Part shown: positions 1 to 10,203 of the stretch, in pieces | How the letters are laid out: each line of letters begins with the position of its first letter | Numbering within the stretch: position 1 is the first letter of the stretch | Source: Halobaculum litoreum | GTDB taxonomy: Archaea; Halobacteriota; Halobacteria; Halobacteriales; Haloferacaceae | NCBI RefSeq assembly: GCF_030127125.1 | Contig: NZ_CP126156.1 | Span: forward strand, 806,001-870,000 | Length of the DNA stretch: 64,000 nucleotides | Direction: 5' to 3' | Notes under the pieces: generated by a model | The model's input: the letters and a program-made list of their open reading frames with translations, nothing else | What the model was told of the DNA's origin: nothing | The model's database searches: none | Program-made: the position numbers and the translations under genes

Positions 1-242
1 AGCCCGCTCCCGGCCGGGGCGGTCTGGACCACCGCCGTCGCGGGCGCTCGGCCGTCGCCGAACCGGGCGACGACCGTCCGCTTCCGGTTGCCGGCGTGGA
101 CCGTCGTCACGGACTCCACGGTGCGACCGGGGAACGCCTCGTCGAGTGCCGCGTCTACGTCGCCGTACGGGCTTCCGTCTGCGTCGGCGTCGTCCCCGGC
201 GTCCGTGTCCGCCCCGCGATCCTCGTCGGTTCCCTCGGTCAT
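1..242 (-). CDS. Phosphotransferase (APH-like) family protein, N-terminal part only
   Basis: The reading frame starts at the ATG at 240-242 and runs off the left edge of the window, so only about 80 N-terminal residues are visible. They consist of an acidic, Asp/Ala-rich tail of about 30 residues followed by FPGRTVESVTT and GNRKRTVVARFGDG. That opening resembles the first beta strands of haloarchaeal aminoglycoside/choline-phosphotransferase-like kinases, in which a small-molecule hydroxyl is phosphorylated with ATP. No catalytic residues are visible, so the substrate is unknown. Its ATG overlaps the stop codon of the HAD gene (ATGA), so the two are probably co-transcribed and translationally coupled. 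The family call rests on N-terminal resemblance only. Confidence 0.5.
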   Translation of the reverse strand, partial: MTEGTDEDRGADTDAGDDADADGSPYGDVDAALDEAFPGRTVESVTTVHAGNRKRTVVARFGDGRAPATAVVQTAPAGSG

Positions 243-943
243 CGCGCGACGGTGGGCGGGAACTCCGTCAACGACGCGAGGACGTGTTCCGGGGCGAACG
301 GCGACGGGTCCGGCCTGCCGTCGGCGGTTCGCGGGTGGTCGCCGTCGGGTGACGGCACCCACGCGGCCGGGAGCCCGGCGCCTTGCGCGCCCGCGACGTC
401 GTGCTCCAGCGAGTCGCCGACGAACAGGGTCTCGCTCGGTCGCGACCCCAACAGCGAGCACGCCCGTTCGAACGGCTCCGGGTGGGGCTTGCGGCGGTCC
501 ATGTCGCCGGCGTACACCACCGCGTCGAGCTCCGCGAGCCCCAACGTCGCGATCTTCTGCGACTGCCGCCACTCCGGCCCGTTCGTCACCACCGCGACGG
601 GACCCGCCTCGCGGGCCGTCGCCAGCGCCTCGCGGGCGCCGGGGGTGAACGACACCGCGCCGTGGTCGACCGCGTCGAGCAGCGCCGTCGCGAGCGCGTC
701 GGCGTCGACTCCCGGCCGTCCGTGTCTCGCGGCGACGACCCGGAAGCCGGCCGCGAAGTACGCGTGCTCGGCGTTCGGCTCCGGCGGCCCCGTCAGTGCA
801 CGCCACAGGTCGCTCGGTTCGCCGAACCGGCCTACGCCCGCCCCCTCGAACGCCGCCGCGTACAGGTCGTTCGGGTCCTGGTCGCGCCGACAGACGGTGT
901 CGTCGAGGTCGAACGCCACCGCCGCGTACCCCGTGTGGCTCAT
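239..943 (-). CDS. HAD-superfamily hydrolase
   Basis: A 234-residue cytoplasmic phosphatase-like protein of the haloacid dehalogenase superfamily. Motif I is AFDLDDTV near the N-terminus (nucleophile Asp plus general-acid Asp), motif II is VVTNGP, a conserved Lys lies in DRRKPHPEPF, and motif IV is FVGDSLEHD. A helical cap lies between motifs I and II. I chose the ATG at 941-943. A longer frame upstream only translates origin repeats (giving NTGFRVL-like peptides) and puts nothing conserved ahead of motif I. Its stop overlaps the start of the phosphotransferase gene. The gene diverges from the origin region. The substrate cannot be predicted; small sugar phosphates or nucleotides are typical of the family. 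Confidence 0.85.
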   Translation of the reverse strand: MSHTGYAAVAFDLDDTVCRRDQDPNDLYAAAFEGAGVGRFGEPSDLWRALTGPPEPNAEHAYFAAGFRVVAARHGRPGVDADALATALLDAVDHGAVSFTPGAREALATAREAGPVAVVTNGPEWRQSQKIATLGLAELDAVVYAGDMDRRKPHPEPFERACSLLGSRPSETLFVGDSLEHDVAGAQGAGLPAAWVPSPDGDHPRTADGRPDPSPFAPEHVLASLTEFPPTVAR

Positions 944-990
944 ACCGTCGGTGGGTGTCGCCCCCGCAAAACGCGTTCGGCCCGACGAAA

Positions 991-1008
991 GCACTCGAAA
1001 CCCGGTGT
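991..1008 (+). repeat. ORB-like repeat 1
   Basis: GCACTCGAAACCCGGTGT, direct orientation. It is the copy closest to the divergent HAD gene and may overlap that gene's promoter. Confidence 0.75.
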
Positions 1009-1050
1009 TCCGTCGAGGCGGCTCGCAGCGGATCCCCGGTCGACTGTGAA

Positions 1051-1068
1051 GCACTCGCAAACCGGTGT
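1051..1068 (+). repeat. ORB-like repeat 2
   Basis: GCACTCGCAAACCGGTGT. It forms a perfect inverted pair with the copy at 1096-1113, separated by 27 bp. Confidence 0.8.
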
Positions 1069-1095
1069 GTGGTGGATCGACGGGGCGACCCTCTG

Positions 1096-1113
1096 ACACC
1101 GGTTTGCGAGTGC
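1096..1113 (-). repeat. ORB-like repeat 3 (inverted)
   Basis: ACACCGGTTTGCGAGTGC is the exact reverse complement of the copy at 1051-1068. It lies just left of the AT-rich block and points the opposite way to the downstream copies, as expected for boxes flanking an unwinding element. Confidence 0.8.
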
Positions 1114-1160
1114 TTTCCGCACGAGGGTGGCGGGGGCGGCCGTCGCGACACCCCCTCGCG

Positions 1161-1190
1161 TATATTATATCGGTATCGATCTCTAGCTAG
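1161..1190. other. Candidate duplex-unwinding element
   Basis: A 30-bp AT-rich stretch (TATATTATAT, then CGGTATCGATCTCTAGCTAG) in an otherwise very GC-rich region, followed by a purine-rich GAGGAGGAAGAGGAGGGAG tract at 1191-1209. It lies between the inverted repeat at 1096 and the direct repeats from 1342 on. Its role in strand opening is inferred from composition and position. Confidence 0.6.
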
Positions 1191-1341
1191 GAGGAGGAAG
1201 AGGAGGGAGTCGAGCAGGCCGGGATCGCTAGTCTGAGCGGGATCGGGAGTGCCGTGTCGTTCGCCGCGCTGTCCATTTAAGTAGTGGGTGGCGGTGCCGC
1301 CGCGGGCGGGGTGTCCCGACGCACCCACACGACCGGCCGAA

Positions 1342-1359
1342 GCACTCGAAATCCGGTGT
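1342..1359 (+). repeat. ORB-like repeat 4
   Basis: GCACTCGAAATCCGGTGT, the first direct copy to the right of the AT-rich block. Confidence 0.8.
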
Positions 1360-1505
1360 GAGAGGGTCGTTCGCGGAGACGCGTTCCGGAGCCGTCCCCC
1401 GCGCTCCGGAGCGCTCACGAGAGGACGACGAGACGGCGGTGTTCAGACGGTAGCAGTCGCGAGCGCGACGAACGGCGTGTGGGCCGCAGGGTCACCGCGA
1501 CGCGA

Positions 1506-1523
1506 ACACTCGAAAACCGGTGT
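1506..1523 (+). repeat. ORB-like repeat 5
   Basis: ACACTCGAAAACCGGTGT, direct orientation. It is 72 bp (start to start) upstream of the next copy. Confidence 0.8.
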
Positions 1524-1577
1524 CCGGGTCGGCGCCGCGCGCCGCGGGCCGACGGGCGGGGGCCGCGCTCGCGGAAA

Positions 1578-1595
1578 GCACTCGAAAACCGGTGT
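1578..1595 (+). repeat. ORB-like repeat 6
   Basis: GCACTCGAAAACCGGTGT. This exact 18-mer recurs in inverted orientation at 3281-3298, beyond the orc1 gene. Confidence 0.8.
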
Positions 1596-1703
1596 GTGTC
1601 GTCCCCGTGAAGCCCGGCGCGTGGACGAGCCGTCGGTTCCTCGGAGGGGTCGAGAGGACGGGGCCGTGCTCCCGGGGCCGGTTCGGGGGCCGCGCGGCCC
1701 GGA

Positions 1704-1721
1704 ACACTCGCAAACCGGTGG
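1704..1721 (+). repeat. ORB-like repeat 7
   Basis: ACACTCGCAAACCGGTGG, differing from the consensus at the first and last positions. Confidence 0.75.
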
Positions 1722-1742
1722 GGGTCGTCGCCGACGCGAGGC

Positions 1743-1831
1743 GAACACTCGCAGGCTCGCGCACGCACTCGTAGAACACTCGCAACCCCCCGGTTGAACA
1801 CTCGAAAGCACGCGAAAGCACTCGAACTTCC
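1743..1831 (+). repeat. Degenerate ORB half-site cluster upstream of orc1
   Basis: At least four partial copies keep only the (A)CACTCG(A/C)AA half: GAACACTCGCAGG at 1743, GAACACTCGCAACC at 1774, GAACACTCGAAAG at 1796, and AAAGCACTCGAAC near 1816. They lack CCGGTGT. They end about 40 bp before the orc1 start codon, so Orc1 binding here could also autoregulate orc1; that role is inferred. Confidence 0.6.
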
Positions 1832-1871
1832 ACACGCTTATCAGGAGGCTGGTCTCACAGACGGGTGCGAT

Positions 1872-3161
1872 ATGGGGTCGAGTTCGATATTCGAGGACGA
1901 CGTGGAGATCATCCGGAACGCGGACCTCTTCACGGAGGAGCACACGCCCGCGGAGATCCTCTGCCGCGACGAGGTGATGCAGGACTACGTGAACGCGCTC
2001 AAACCCGTGTACAAGGGCCGTCCGCCCCGGAACGCCTTCCTCTACGGCGACACCGGCGTCGGGAAGACGGCCGCGACAAAGTACCTGCTCCAGGAACTCG
2101 ACGCCGACATCGACTCGCGCAACGCCGACTCGCCGGGCGACGAACGGGGGTTCACGTACGTGCGCGTGAACTGCCAGAACCTCGCGCCCGCCGACGGCAC
2201 CGCCTCGTCGTACCAGGTCGCCATCGCGCTCGTGAACGAACTGCGCGACGGCGAGACGGTCTCCTCGACCGGGTACGCCGCCCGCGAGGTGTACGAGATG
2301 CTGTACGACGAACTCGACGACATCGGCGGCACCGTCCTCATCGTCCTCGACGAGGTCGACCGCGTCGGCGAGTCCGACACCCTGCTGTACGACCTCCCGC
2401 GCGCACGCGACATCGGGTACGTAGAGAACACCCGCATCGGCCTCATCGGCATCTCCAACGACTACACGTTCCGGTCGAACCTCTCGCCGAAGGTGCGGGA
2501 CACGCTGTGTGAGACGGAGATCAAGTTCCCCGCCTACACCGCCGAGGAGCTCGAGGAGATCATCGAGGCGCGCGCCGAACGCGCGCTCCACGCCGACACC
2601 TACGGGAAGGAGGTGCTCTCGCTGTGTGCGGCGCTCGCGGTGCGGAACTCCTCGGGGAGCGCCCGCCGGGCGATGGACCTGCTCAAACAGGCGGCCGAAC
2701 ACGCCGAGAACGAGGGCCACGTCCCCATCCAGCCCGACGACGTGTACGCCGCGAAGGAAGAACTCGACTACGGCGACATGGTGGAGTCGGTCGCCGACCA
2801 GGACCAGCACAAACAGCTGATCCTCTCGGCGGTCGCGCGCCTCGACGCGGACGGTCGCACGCCCGTGCGCACGAAGGCGATCCACGCGGCGTACCGCCGG
2901 CTCGCGCAGGCCGCGGGCGACGACCCGCTCAGCCAGCGCGGGATGTACAACCACCTCACCCGACTCGACATGCTGGGGTTCCTCCACTCGTACCAGAACA
3001 ACGAGGGGCTCCGCGGCGGCCAGTACAACACCTACGAACTGTCCGAGGCGCTCACCGTCGCCCAAGTCGAGGACGCCATCGCGGAGTCGGACCTCCTGCT
3101 CGACGGCGTCTCCCTCGACGTCGACCGCATCCTGCGGGACGCCGGACTGGCCGACACCTGA
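1872..3161 (+). CDS. orc1: Orc1/Cdc6 family replication initiator
   Basis: A 429-residue AAA+ ATPase that recognises origin boxes and loads the MCM helicase. Walker A is GDTGVGKT (residues 59-66), Walker B is VLIVLDEVD (about 155-163), and the sensor-1 region is IGISND. The lid carries SSGSARRAMDLL, and the C-terminal winged helix runs through RTKAIHAAYRRLA to NTYELS. I start at the ATG at 1872 (MGSSSIFEDD). A longer frame from 1794 would translate the degenerate repeats. The length is normal for haloarchaeal Orc1 proteins. The adjoining repeat-rich region upstream, plus one repeat downstream, make this the likely cognate initiator of that origin. Haloarchaea usually have several orc paralogs, so the number suffix is left open. 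Confidence 0.95.
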   Translation: MGSSSIFEDDVEIIRNADLFTEEHTPAEILCRDEVMQDYVNALKPVYKGRPPRNAFLYGDTGVGKTAATKYLLQELDADIDSRNADSPGDERGFTYVRVNCQNLAPADGTASSYQVAIALVNELRDGETVSSTGYAAREVYEMLYDELDDIGGTVLIVLDEVDRVGESDTLLYDLPRARDIGYVENTRIGLIGISNDYTFRSNLSPKVRDTLCETEIKFPAYTAEELEEIIEARAERALHADTYGKEVLSLCAALAVRNSSGSARRAMDLLKQAAEHAENEGHVPIQPDDVYAAKEELDYGDMVESVADQDQHKQLILSAVARLDADGRTPVRTKAIHAAYRRLAQAAGDDPLSQRGMYNHLTRLDMLGFLHSYQNNEGLRGGQYNTYELSEALTVAQVEDAIAESDLLLDGVSLDVDRILRDAGLADT

Positions 3162-3280: not shown

Positions 3281-3298
3281 ACACCGGTTTTCGAGTGC
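3281..3298 (-). repeat. Distal ORB-like repeat, inverted, downstream of orc1
   Basis: ACACCGGTTTTCGAGTGC is the perfect reverse complement of the copy at 1578-1595. It lies about 120 bp past the orc1 stop, in the orc1/HTTM intergenic gap. Together with the upstream copies it brackets orc1. Confidence 0.75.
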
Positions 3299-3329: not shown

Positions 3330-4907
3330 TCACGCGCACTCGTGTGTTCGGACGCGCGAGACACGCGTCGAGCCCCGCTCGCCGGGTCGTGTCGACTCGA
3401 CGACCGTGTACAGCGCGACCCTGTCGAGGTCGCCGTCGTGGGTCGCCTCCCACCGCGAACACAACGCCGACGCGACGTGGCCCCGGAGCGCCTCGTCGTC
3501 GCCCCACCGGACCACCTCGAGGTACTTCCGCCACCGAACGCTCGGGTAGCCCGTCCCACCGGCGCCGTCCCGCGACCAGCGGACCGCCCCGCCGCGGATC
3601 GCGTCGACTCGCGTCCCCGACTCGGTGGTCCCCACGGCGACGTAGCGGACGTCCTCCGAGGGCGGGTACGGCGCGAACATGTCCCACCGGGCGCCCTCGG
3701 GGGTTACGCCGGCGTCGTCGTCGACCGGGACGGCGACGTAGCCCAGCGCGGTCGCGTTCCACACGAGCACGCCGACCAGGAGGACGGCCGCGGCGACGCG
3801 CGATAGGCGGCGCAGCGTCGGCACCGCCGTGCGGCGCAGCGACGCACCCGTCCGCCGCGCGGCGGTCGCGACGGTCGAGCCGGGCACCTCGACCCGCGCG
3901 ATCACGCCCTTCGAGGCGACGGCGCGGTGGAGCGCGGCCGGACGCAGCCGTCCGCGGACTCGCGCGAGCGCCGCGACCCCGGCGTTCCACCGGGGCTCGA
4001 CGGCGTCCCACACGCGAGGGGGGAGACACGGGAGCAACGCGGCTACGCTGACCACGGGGAACAGCCCGACGGCTAGCGTGAGCGCCATCCCGGTGTGGGC
4101 GGCCGCGAACGCCCCGACGACCAGCGCGCGCGTCCGTCCGGTGGTCGCCACGAGCGCGGGTGCACAACACAACAGCGCGAGCCAGCCGACGCCGAGGGCA
4201 GCGAGCACGCGCGGCCGGCCTGCGAGCGCGTCCCCGAACAGGACGGTGAACGAGTCGAGGCTGAACACCATCGCCACGGCGGTGCCGTCGGTCCACGCGT
4301 CGCCGCGGAGCTTCACCGTCGCGTTGGCGACGTAGACGACCACCGGCTGTACCAACAACCCCACGGCGGCCGGGTGGAGCAACTGTCCGCCGTCGCGAGC
4401 GTCGGCGCTCCCCGCAGTCTCGACGCGCGTTCCGTTCGCACCCATCGCCATTCCCGTGCCGAGCGGGAGGAACACGCTCCACAACAACAGTCGCCGTAAC
4501 AGCGAGTCGCCGCCGTTCAACACCAACGGGTTCCTGACGTGGAGCCCGGTCAGGAGCACCAGCGCACAGACGGCGGCGGCCTTCGTCCGGTAGCCCGCGA
4601 CCAGACAGCCCGCCGCGATCCCCGTGAGCGCGAAGAGGAACGCGACCCACCAGTCGCCGCCGGTCAGGGTGTACAGGCTCGCGTGCGCCACAGTCGGGAA
4701 CCGCTCCGCGAGGACCGATCGGGGGAGGACGCCGGTGTCGGTGTAGAAGAACCGGAGGAACCGCGCCCGGAGGCACACGTCGACGAGGAGCGTCGCCCCG
4801 AGCACGACCCGGAGCGCGACCAACGCACGCGGGTCCACCGACAGCCGAGCCCGCGCCGCGCTCCGAAGCCGCGCCCCGACGGGGGCGACCCACGAACGGA
4901 GGGCCAC
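3330..4907 (-). CDS. HTTM-domain (gamma-carboxylase-like) membrane protein
   Basis: A multi-pass membrane protein of the HTTM family, the domain also found in vitamin-K-dependent gamma-carboxylase. Landmarks are VDPRALVALRVVLGATLLVD, RFLRFFYTDTGVLPR, LTGGDWWVAFLFALTG and the VLNGGDSLLRRLLLWSVFLP segment. A soluble C-terminal tail follows the last helices and ends in RVRTHECA. Substrate and reaction are unknown for the prokaryotic members. The start is uncertain. The frame is open back to an ATG at 5003, but that would fall inside the rRNA upstream region. A TATA-like AAAGTATT around 4935 on this strand and the usual short N-terminus favour the GTG at 4905-4907. The gene converges on orc1. Confidence 0.75.
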   Translation of the reverse strand: MALRSWVAPVGARLRSAARARLSVDPRALVALRVVLGATLLVDVCLRARFLRFFYTDTGVLPRSVLAERFPTVAHASLYTLTGGDWWVAFLFALTGIAAGCLVAGYRTKAAAVCALVLLTGLHVRNPLVLNGGDSLLRRLLLWSVFLPLGTGMAMGANGTRVETAGSADARDGGQLLHPAAVGLLVQPVVVYVANATVKLRGDAWTDGTAVAMVFSLDSFTVLFGDALAGRPRVLAALGVGWLALLCCAPALVATTGRTRALVVGAFAAAHTGMALTLAVGLFPVVSVAALLPCLPPRVWDAVEPRWNAGVAALARVRGRLRPAALHRAVASKGVIARVEVPGSTVATAARRTGASLRRTAVPTLRRLSRVAAAVLLVGVLVWNATALGYVAVPVDDDAGVTPEGARWDMFAPYPPSEDVRYVAVGTTESGTRVDAIRGGAVRWSRDGAGGTGYPSVRWRKYLEVVRWGDDEALRGHVASALCSRWEATHDGDLDRVALYTVVESTRPGERGSTRVSRVRTHECA

Positions 4908-5024
4908 TGGTCGGACGAACCAGTCACTTCCCTGAATACTTTGTGACGCGTGGCCGGGCTGATCCACGCGCCCTCGGGCGGAAACTGTGAGAGACATACC
5001 CACGAGTACGCCTCCCTCGGCGCC

Positions 5025-5234: not shown

Positions 5235-6706
<1,472 letters not shown>

Positions 6707-7056
6707 CAGACCGGGACCAGGACGACGTCCTGGCCCACCTTGGGTTTCGTCGTGGCGCTCGTGGATGCGACCAGACACCTTCGAACTATCGGGGCTCGTC
6801 AGACCTCGTGGTCATCGCCAGGGTTCGATTCCTTGGAGGTCACTCTCGTACCACGATTCGAATCGTGCCCCTTATGTGTGGCACGACGAGATGAAGAGGT
6901 ACACACGATCGATGCACCATTCCGCGAGAGCGGGAATGGGAAGGGTCGATGCACGCTCCCGTGCCACCCACGGGACGTGCGATGACGACCGTATGTACGT
7001 GCAATCCAGACACCCACTGAACCCGATTCATCGGGTCCATTGGGTTCCACTCAGTA
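6707..7056 (+). other. 16S-23S internal transcribed spacer without a recognisable tRNA
   Basis: It contains the 3' half of the 16S processing stem (about 6742-6796) and several hairpins, for example CCATTCC...GGGAATGG near 6917-6940 and TCCCGTG...CACGGGA near 6957-6974. The 5' half of the 23S processing stem follows at 6993-7031. A tRNA-Ala gene, usual in this spacer in haloarchaea, could not be found. A T-arm-like motif (CAGGGTTCGATTCCTTG, about 6819-6836) is flanked by GACCTC and GAGGTC but has no D or anticodon arm. Confidence 0.7.
6993..7031 (+). other. 23S pre-rRNA processing stem, 5' strand
   Basis: ATGTACGTGCAATCCAG (6993-7009) and TGAACCCGATTCA (7018-7030) are complementary to CTGGATTGCACGTACAT (10012-10028) and TGAATCGGGTTCA (9991-10003) downstream of 23S. 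The bulge between the two helices fits an archaeal bulge-helix-bulge processing site. Confidence 0.7.
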
Positions 7057-9968
<2,912 letters not shown>

Positions 9969-9990
9969 ATACTGGAGCCCGATGTTCCGT

Positions 9991-10028
9991 TGAATCGGGT
10001 TCAGGTGCTAACTGGATTGCACGTACAT
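9991..10028 (+). other. 23S pre-rRNA processing stem, 3' strand
   Basis: TGAATCGGGTTCA and CTGGATTGCACGTACAT are the exact partners of the two 5' helices at 6993-7030. Confidence 0.7.
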
Positions 10029-10080
10029 ATCGGTCGGAGACCGACGTTGGCACACATCGGATCGTTCCCGATGGTCGGCC

Positions 10081-10203
10081 TTCGGGCGGCCATAGCGGCG
10101 GGGCACCACCCGTACCCATCCCGAACACGGAAGTTAAGCCCGCCAGCGTTCCGGCCAGTCCTGGAGTGCGAGAGCCTCTGGAAACACCGGTTCGCCGCCC
10201 ACC
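10081..10203 (+). rRNA. rrf: 5S ribosomal RNA
   Basis: It contains GCGGCCATAGCGG, CCCGTACCCATCCCGAACACG and GTTCGCCGCCCACC, the usual haloarchaeal 5S segments. The length is about 122 nt. It is followed by a terminator-like hairpin rather than by the tRNA-Cys that some haloarchaeal operons carry there. Confidence 0.95.

Follow-up and report, generated by a model that had tools for sequence, protein, structure and literature searches.

Introduction

The closest described systems are haloarchaeal origins of replication that adjoin an orc/cdc6 gene (statements taken from cited papers refer to the sections of each paper that were covered). In these origins, inverted origin recognition boxes (ORBs) surround an AT-rich element upstream of orc/cdc6, and families of Orc and ORB with linked specificity have been described (PMC3528665). 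Both ORBs of oriC1 in Haloarcula hispanica end in G-strings that are indispensable (PMC3936714). We analyzed a stretch of 64 kb from the main chromosome of Halobaculum litoreum (C1:806001-870000, called the window below; positions without a contig name are counted from its first base), in which an orc1/cdc6 gene is preceded by a cluster of repeated boxes that includes the same inverted arrangement around an AT-rich element. The genome amounts to 3.04 Mb in two contigs and is 85.9% complete. We consider it probable, at about 0.8, that this locus is a further origin of the Halobaculum main chromosome besides the classic oriC1, and that the Orc encoded by the adjacent gene would bind a clade-specific variant of the ORB.

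Conserved boxes around a putative unwinding element

Upstream of the orc1/cdc6 gene there are seven boxes, six on the plus strand and one on the minus strand, with the 17-bp core CACTCGNAANCCGGTGT (Table 1). The core is exact in six of the seven, box 7 being the one that differs. A preliminary description of this DNA had reported seven repeats in two orientations directly upstream of orc1, which was correct, and had stated that they flank an AT-rich block, which holds only for the middle pair (1096 on the minus strand and 1343 on the plus strand). That is, boxes 3 and 4 are inverted with respect to each other about the AT-rich block at 1161-1190, the putative duplex unwinding element (DUE).

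We searched for the box over the 3,042,468 bases of the genome. The 17-mer with at most two mismatches gave 13 matches, 8 of them inside a locus of 2.3 kb, and the reversed box pattern at the same tolerance gave no match in the whole genome. When the 16-mer with at most one mismatch was searched for in 11 genomes of the genus (the present one included; named members include Halobaculum saliterrae and H. gomorrense), 69 of the 80 matches were found at the orc locus. The 11 matches elsewhere, two perfect copies in the present genome apart, are at about the level of chance, because the reversed control gave a similar number (10). A scattering of the 18-mer far from orc genes, which the preliminary description had named as evidence that would speak against an origin, was not seen with these 8 of 13 and 69 of 80 matches at the locus.

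The arrangement of the boxes is also conserved. In a scan with a weight matrix, all 11 genomes of the genus showed seven boxes in the order + + - [AT-rich] + + + +, and the spacing of the inverted pair was 241-245 bp in every one of them. Boxes 4 and 5 are 161-165 bp apart, and boxes 5 and 6 exactly 72 bp apart, each in 9 of the 11. The seventh box was weak in two genomes, scoring 12.9 and 15.2 where 12 was the threshold; in its 19-bp form it starts at -169 relative to the orc start in 8 of the 11 loci. An inverted box downstream of orc was present in 11/11, with one mismatch in three. At the three plasmid loci related to this one, only 5 or 6 boxes were found at each.

The boxes that flank the DUE differ from the others in what follows them. 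The motif AG[AG]G[AGT]G lies within 10 nt of the 3' end in 24 of 28 DUE-flanking boxes (21/22 from the genus and 3/6 from the plasmids), compared with none of the 65 other boxes. By their sequence, two kinds of box are thus separable, the inverted pair with G-rich ends beside the unwinding element and the remaining boxes, which do not have the motif. The long G run typical of classic ORBs is absent from the present boxes. The G-rich element 3' of box 4 is contained in a 30-nt inverted repeat (I2). The AT content was 47% in the 60 bp from 1141; every other 60-bp step from 901 to 1741 lay within 18-40%.

Several of our own observations weigh against the reading of this anatomy as an origin. The regular expression for the G-rich motif was composed after the sequences had been viewed, and 11 nt contained on average 5.9 G for the core boxes and 4.6 for the others, some of which are G-rich in a different manner. 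The AT-rich block is modest, and the orc promoter at 1771-1890 almost equals it with 43-45% AT. In addition, there are two perfect 16-mers away from the locus, C1:636573 and C1:681896, which among the 11 genomes occur in the present one only; by the gene names, which were judged by eye, one follows an S-adenosylmethionine synthetase gene and the other lies beside a NifU-like gene and a tRNA. With perfect boxes at distances of 125 and 170 kb, Orc may also have targets elsewhere.

It could be supposed from these two distal boxes, which adjoin other genes, and from the half-box array on the orc promoter described below that the boxes are operators, that this Orc paralogue is a regulator and not an initiator, and that the locus is no origin. 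Orc-type proteins can indeed regulate, as Orc1-2 controls the DNA-damage response (PMC9738581). We regard this explanation as very improbable. Almost all boxes lie at a single locus, where the GC skew flips as well, and the inverted pair with outward G-rich ends around an AT-rich element is arranged as in the proven haloarchaeal oriC1 (PMC3936714).

GC skew at the locus

We compared the GC skew of 160 kb on each side of the locus. The values were +0.0072 on the left and -0.0066 on the right, and of 5000 block permutations, 1 gave a difference as large. For comparison, the oriC1-type locus of this genome, which lies at about 2344 kb of C1 and is told by the classic boxes GTTCCACCGGAAACGAAGGGGTGGGG next to another orc, gave +0.0067 and -0.0086 (0/5000). 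At the point midway between the two loci, the skew flipped back from -0.0067 to +0.0051 (4/5000). In Haloquadratum, predicted origins lie near high points of the cumulative GC skew (PMC3119063), and the sign of the skew at the present locus fits this pattern. The cumulative maximum near the locus, together with the minimum midway to oriC1, suggests long-term firing. Because the architecture is conserved in 11/11 genomes of the genus and the skew changes sign as it does at oriC1, the candidate chromosomal origin proposed in the preliminary description is supported.

The skew also supplies evidence on the opposite side. The midpoint test on the arc between the locus and oriC1 (arc 1) was placed after the cumulative curve, lowest at 1576 kb, had been viewed, and a free changepoint search over a 400-kb stretch at this midpoint, which had been chosen as a control from the middle of the chromosome, was not significant (69 and 119 of 500). 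On the other arc (arc 2), the midpoint at 187 kb was fixed in advance and a minimum was predicted there; the prediction failed, the skew running from +0.0050 to -0.0048 (202/5000). The best changepoint near the locus was at 836-838 kb, about 30 kb off the origin; that at oriC1 was at 2344-2345 kb. The Haloquadratum study, moreover, states that origins could not be identified directly from its skew plots (PMC3119063). On arc 2 we observed a cumulative maximum near 120 kb (C1 at about 60-140 kb), where the minimum had been predicted. The skew of arc 2 is opposite to the prediction, and two origins therefore do not account for the whole chromosome. This maximum may reflect another, third origin or a recent insertion.

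The failure of the sole skew prediction fixed beforehand speaks for a rival reading, in which the locus is a dormant or relic origin whose boxes and orc serve plasmid incompatibility or gene regulation, with firing only from oriC1 (and others). Dormant origins are retained in haloarchaea (PMC4595724), and close relatives of the Orc-box pair (83-85% Orc identity) on Halobaculum plasmids of 196-264 kb point to a mobile pair. We nevertheless think dormancy unlikely, in view of the layout kept in 11/11 genomes and of the cumulative maximum near the locus with its minimum midway to oriC1, and we prefer to regard the locus as a probable working origin.

Half-box array at the orc promoter

Two features of the locus lay outside the preliminary description, namely box 8 downstream of orc and an array of half-boxes at the orc promoter (Table 1). 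The array at 1798-1826 consists of left half-boxes directly upstream of the TATA-like element, and the right half of the box is absent from it. We defined an array as at least three units of [AGT]C[AT][CT]NNG[AC]A spaced 9-11 bp apart within the 140 bp directly upstream of orc. In the 64-kb window this expression had one match, that at 1798-1826.

The array was found in 39 of 43 orc loci, and none of 8600 dinucleotide shuffles contained it; when loci with shared sequence were counted once, it was found in 24 of 27. Left out of this count were L076 (no upstream sequence), L087 (frameshifted) and L047-L050 (matches that begin inside the protein). The four negative loci (L044, L078, L082 and L084) have degenerate versions by eye. 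These counts are weakened by two circumstances, that the expression was composed after the loci had been viewed and that many loci share ancestry. Both held-out members, Halalkalicoccus sp. CGA53 and Halocatena salina, possess the array; they were the only two of seven plasmid matches with more than 50% identity that had not previously been viewed as loci.

The sequence of the half-boxes follows the clade. We counted them in the 130 bp directly upstream of the gene, where the counts take in some full boxes. CACTCGNA had 3-5 copies in each of the 14 Halobaculum loci and was absent from the 29 others, CATTTGNA was confined to the 7 loci of Halogranum and Haloprofundus, and the CTCAGGAA type, including the variants CTCGGG and CTGAGG, was found in 19/19 loci of its own clade and nowhere else. 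CACTTGNA was found in the two Haladaptatus loci and also in other clades, so it is not exclusive. In clades A to D the array lies within -86 to -35 from the start; Halobaculum has an extra array at -127 to -80.

These features suggest that orc may be autoregulated through the half-box array at its promoter. As to earlier reports of half-box arrays or autoregulation for haloarchaeal orc genes, there was none among the literature matches listed, most subscription papers being outside the coverage. In bacteria, tandem initiator half-sites stand next to the unwinding element (the DnaA-trio). By analogy the array could be part of the origin, as a second unwinding or loading element, or else a variant of the transcription factor B recognition element (BRE) and TATA element peculiar to the gene lineage; either would be independent of the rival readings of the locus as a whole. 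The array overlaps the likely BRE and adjoins the box region, and the stretch at 1771-1890, with 43-45% AT, comes close to the 47% of the putative DUE. Its sequence, on the other hand, tracks the box of its own clade, which a general promoter element would not do; it abuts the TATA-like element outside the inverted pair, and it is unique within 64 kb. We find this alternative doubtful, and autoregulation through the array seems to us the better explanation.

For Orcs of other families, the unit expression above found no array in the 10 to which it was applied, nor at the genome's own oriC1. Many of these promoters nevertheless have the same design with a half-box of their own, for example ACTCCGGAC repeated before GCGGTGG-CTTTAT in L130. 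At L129, L130, L132-L135, L149, L155, L176, L182, L184 and L190, half-boxes phased by 9 bp, apparently of a separate type for each family, are followed by GTGG or GAGGG and then by a TATA-like stretch.

A lag test was applied to further loci. We took 60 orc loci of other kinds, of which 58 (from 18 genomes) had enough upstream sequence; matches that were of the oriC1 type, partial or at contig edges were excluded. Of the 58 loci, 14 reached 13 or more of 18 matches at lag 9 within 130 bp before the gene; one of the 14 (L187) resembles coding sequence. The other lags from 6 to 15 gave 0 or 1 locus each. At lag 9, two control regions gave 0 (at most 2 at other lags), and 19 orc promoters of the universal type gave 0. 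The autocorrelation over whole promoters gave no decision, since the control also showed a raised lag 9, which our guess ascribes to codon periodicity; the lag test confined to the window before the gene was clearer.

We tentatively propose, at slightly less than even odds, that haloarchaeal Orc1/Cdc6 proteins of several families autoregulate via a half-ORB array phased by 9-10 bp at the TATA/BRE, on which monomers would stack by their winged helices without a G-rich end, and that the array co-evolves with the box of each Orc. If this were true, archaea would possess a counterpart of dnaA autoregulation, in which half-sites repress and G-ended full sites fire. With the half-box arrays, autoregulation of archaeal initiators becomes open to a direct reporter test.

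Box specificity and Orc clades

The gene at 1872-3161 matches the Orc profile TIGR02928 with 353.5 bits (cut-off 181.3) and the Pfam families Cdc6_lid and Cdc6_C, and the protein has the AAA+ and winged-helix domains of the orc1/cdc6 product that neighbors haloarchaeal origins of this kind. It is 96-98% identical to its orthologs in the ten other genomes of the genus (97% for H. gomorrense). It can be aligned to the archaeal Orc1/Cdc6 structures 2qby and 2v1u, which we take to be complexes with DNA. The positions of the initiator-specific motif (ISM) and the winged helix were taken from this alignment, and these segments presumably touch the DNA, having been assigned from Orc1-DNA structures.

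Among relatives down to about 50% Orc identity, the right half of the box is similar and the left half differs. The Halobaculum box is CACTCG-[AC]AAACCGGTGT. The left half is CATTTG- in Haloprofundus and Halogranum and CACTTG- in Haladaptatus (two strains). Boxes of the form ACTCAGG-AAAACCGCTGTGTGAGAG occur in Halegenticoccus soli, Halogeometricum pallidum, Natronoglomus, Halonotius and others, and Halorussus has ACTCGGG-AAAAATGGTGTGGGG. At L070, L071, L083 and L088, the de novo motif search returned coding or low-complexity repeats, so a weight matrix was used there. In the protein, the winged-helix segment varies with the clade (YNHLTRLDM, YNHLTKLAM, YNHLTKLVM and FNHLSKLVMF, plus the wing), and the ISM segment [KST][NT]LSPK[VI][KR]D[TS]LCE[TS]E is almost constant across clades. 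This pattern fits a putative reading of the left half by the winged helix and of the right half by the AAA+ domain.

The comparison across orc orthologs proposed in the preliminary description thus did reveal co-variation of box and winged helix, although it covers four or five related clades and is confounded by phylogeny, which weighs against the pairing. The same description had suggested a distinct specificity class paired with this Orc subfamily. The co-variation agrees with the pairing. As to the class, the box has the same layout as that of the genome's own oriC1 (a left part, GAAA and a G-rich end); because this ORB layout is kept and linked Orc/ORB families are already known, the box is a variant of the ORB and not a new class of element. 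A text search of the literature with the box strings gave nothing on archaeal origins among the matches listed.

At one locus of Halegenticoccus tardaugens (L074), a second, classic-like set of ORBs TTTACTGGAAATAGTGGGGTGGG lies 576-1065 bp upstream of orc, and ACTCAGG boxes lie nearer the gene, so that two box types occur at one locus. Two box types at one locus are found in two other species as well (Wu et al. 2012, PMC3528665). The matched pairs of Orc and box, with left halves CACTCG, CATTTG, CACTTG and CTCAGG and a similar right half, form a natural set for swaps of specificity.

Proposed mechanism

The anatomy, conservation, clade-matched co-variation and skew described above would agree with the following scheme of binding, firing, autoregulation and division of labor, which we put forward as a prediction. 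The Orc encoded at 1872-3161 would bind the G-ended pair (boxes 3 and 4) and open the block at 1161-1190. Boxes 1, 2, 5, 6, 7 and 8, which are without the G-rich motif, would probably serve to load or to buffer Orc. Within each box, the winged helix may read the clade-specific left half, and the near-invariant ISM of the AAA+ domain may read the right half together with the G-rich end. When Orc is plentiful, it would repress its own gene at the phased half-box array at the TATA/BRE. The single inverted box downstream of the gene would add titration of Orc, as oriC2D probably does in Haloarcula hispanica (PMC3936714).

Features of the locus and its surroundings

The features of the locus are listed in Table 1.

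Table 1. Boxes, associated elements and genes in the first part of the window
Feature	Position	Strand	Remarks
HAD-family hydrolase gene	239-943	-	neighboring gene
Box 1, CACTCGAAACCCGGTGT	992-1008	+	genome scan
Box 2, CACTCGCAAACCGGTGT	1052-1068	+	genome scan
G-rich element CAGAGGGTCG	1086-1095	-	3' of box 3, directed away from DUE
Box 3	1096-1112	-	left partner of DUE-flanking inverted pair; scan and genus conservation
AT-rich block TATATTATAT...	1161-1190		putative DUE, between inverted pair
Second AT-rich patch CCATTTAAGTAG	1273-1284		small
Box 4	1343-1359	+	right partner of DUE-flanking inverted pair; scan and genus conservation
G-rich element GAGAGGGTCG	1360-1369	+	3' of box 4, directed away from DUE
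Box 5	1507-1523	+	scan and genus conservation
Box 6	1579-1595	+	scan and genus conservation
Box 7	1705-1721	+	last base G; scan and genus conservation
Degenerate box CACTCGCAACCCCCCGGTTG	1777-1796	+	more left half-boxes just upstream at 1746 and 1766
Three tandem left half-boxes, ACACTCGAA-A-GCACGCGAA-A-GCACTCGAA	1798-1826	+	period 10
TATA-like CTTATC of orc promoter	1837-1842	+	assigned by eye
orc1/cdc6 initiator gene	1872-3161	+	429 aa; AAA+, lid, winged helix
Box 8	3281-3297	-	perfect, single, inverted, about 120 bp past orc stop
Gene with sub-threshold HTTM family match	3330-5003	-	24.2 bits, cut-off 27.7
rRNA operon near origin	5235-10203	+	16S 5235-6706, 23S 7052-9967, 5S 10082-10203

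In 9 of the 11 genomes of the genus, the 16S gene lies 0.6-2.2 kb from orc; the remaining two are truncated by contig ends. Outside the genus, 18 of the 19 genomes with an Orc match were searched for 16S; 14 have one, and in none is it within 10 kb of orc.

The nearest Orcs outside this group (83-85%) are on the 196-264-kb plasmids of H. salinum, H. halophilum and Halobaculum sp. XH14. In the plasmid origin-orc pairs of L098 (H. salinum) and L032-L034, we observed 2-4 boxes downstream of orc, compared with one in the genus set of the window. The pair adjoins the rRNA operon in one Halobaculum group and is plasmid-borne in another, and so represents an origin changing its replicon.

Some other orc-bearing stretches were seen in the present genome. 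C2:20044-20673 and C2:238544-239173 (L091 and L092) are near-identical, about 218 kb apart, and their Orc match is in two pieces. Near contig ends, C1:33392, 2746207 and 2774826 (L093-L095) are three related elements with a partial Orc-like match and a repeated gene context.

Comparison with known origins

In the haloarchaeal origins described in PMC3528665, the box goes with the Orc family, and in several species boxes stand on both sides of orc, as they do here. That study covers 15 genomes without Halobaculum, according to the sections covered. The present boxes have the left half CACTCG, with a G-rich end of the AGRG type on the DUE-flanking pair only. The half-box promoter array present here is not mentioned in those sections, supplementary box alignments aside.

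With oriC1, the locus shares the inverted boxes with outward G-rich ends, as seen in Haloarcula hispanica (PMC3936714), and in the present genome the sign of the skew. It differs in that oriC1 has the classic ORB GTTCCACCGGAAACGAAGGGGTGGGG, another Orc and another place on the chromosome. The locus does not belong to the oriC1 family itself; in this genome the classic ORBs sit beside another orc, at about 2344 kb of C1.

The oriCb family (Hvo_orc5, Hbo_14700, Hla_1524) is linked to the rRNA operon in Haloferax, Halogeometricum and Halorubrum (PMC3528665), and the present origin is beside an rRNA operon too. The rRNA-linked Orcs of two other genera (G022 and G036), whose oriCb identity was taken from their position, the family criterion being an Orc at least 80% identical, showed 29% identity to the present Orc, and their flanks are not syntenic with it. 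The best Orc matches outside Halobaculum had 59-61% identity. Membership of oriCb, which the rRNA operon had suggested, and a replacement of oriCb in place are not supported by this 29% identity and lack of flank synteny, and the rRNA linkage was probably reached separately from oriCb.

The downstream box recalls oriC2D of Haloarcula hispanica, a cluster of 11 ORBs past the initiator gene that holds the origin in check, probably through titration of Cdc6E (PMC3936714); the present locus has one downstream box. The promoter array resembles bacterial dnaA autoregulation by DnaA boxes in that sites for the initiator lie on its own promoter (as cited in PMC3936714). It differs from dnaA in that both the protein and the site are unrelated, and in that the phased half-sites here abut a TATA-like element.
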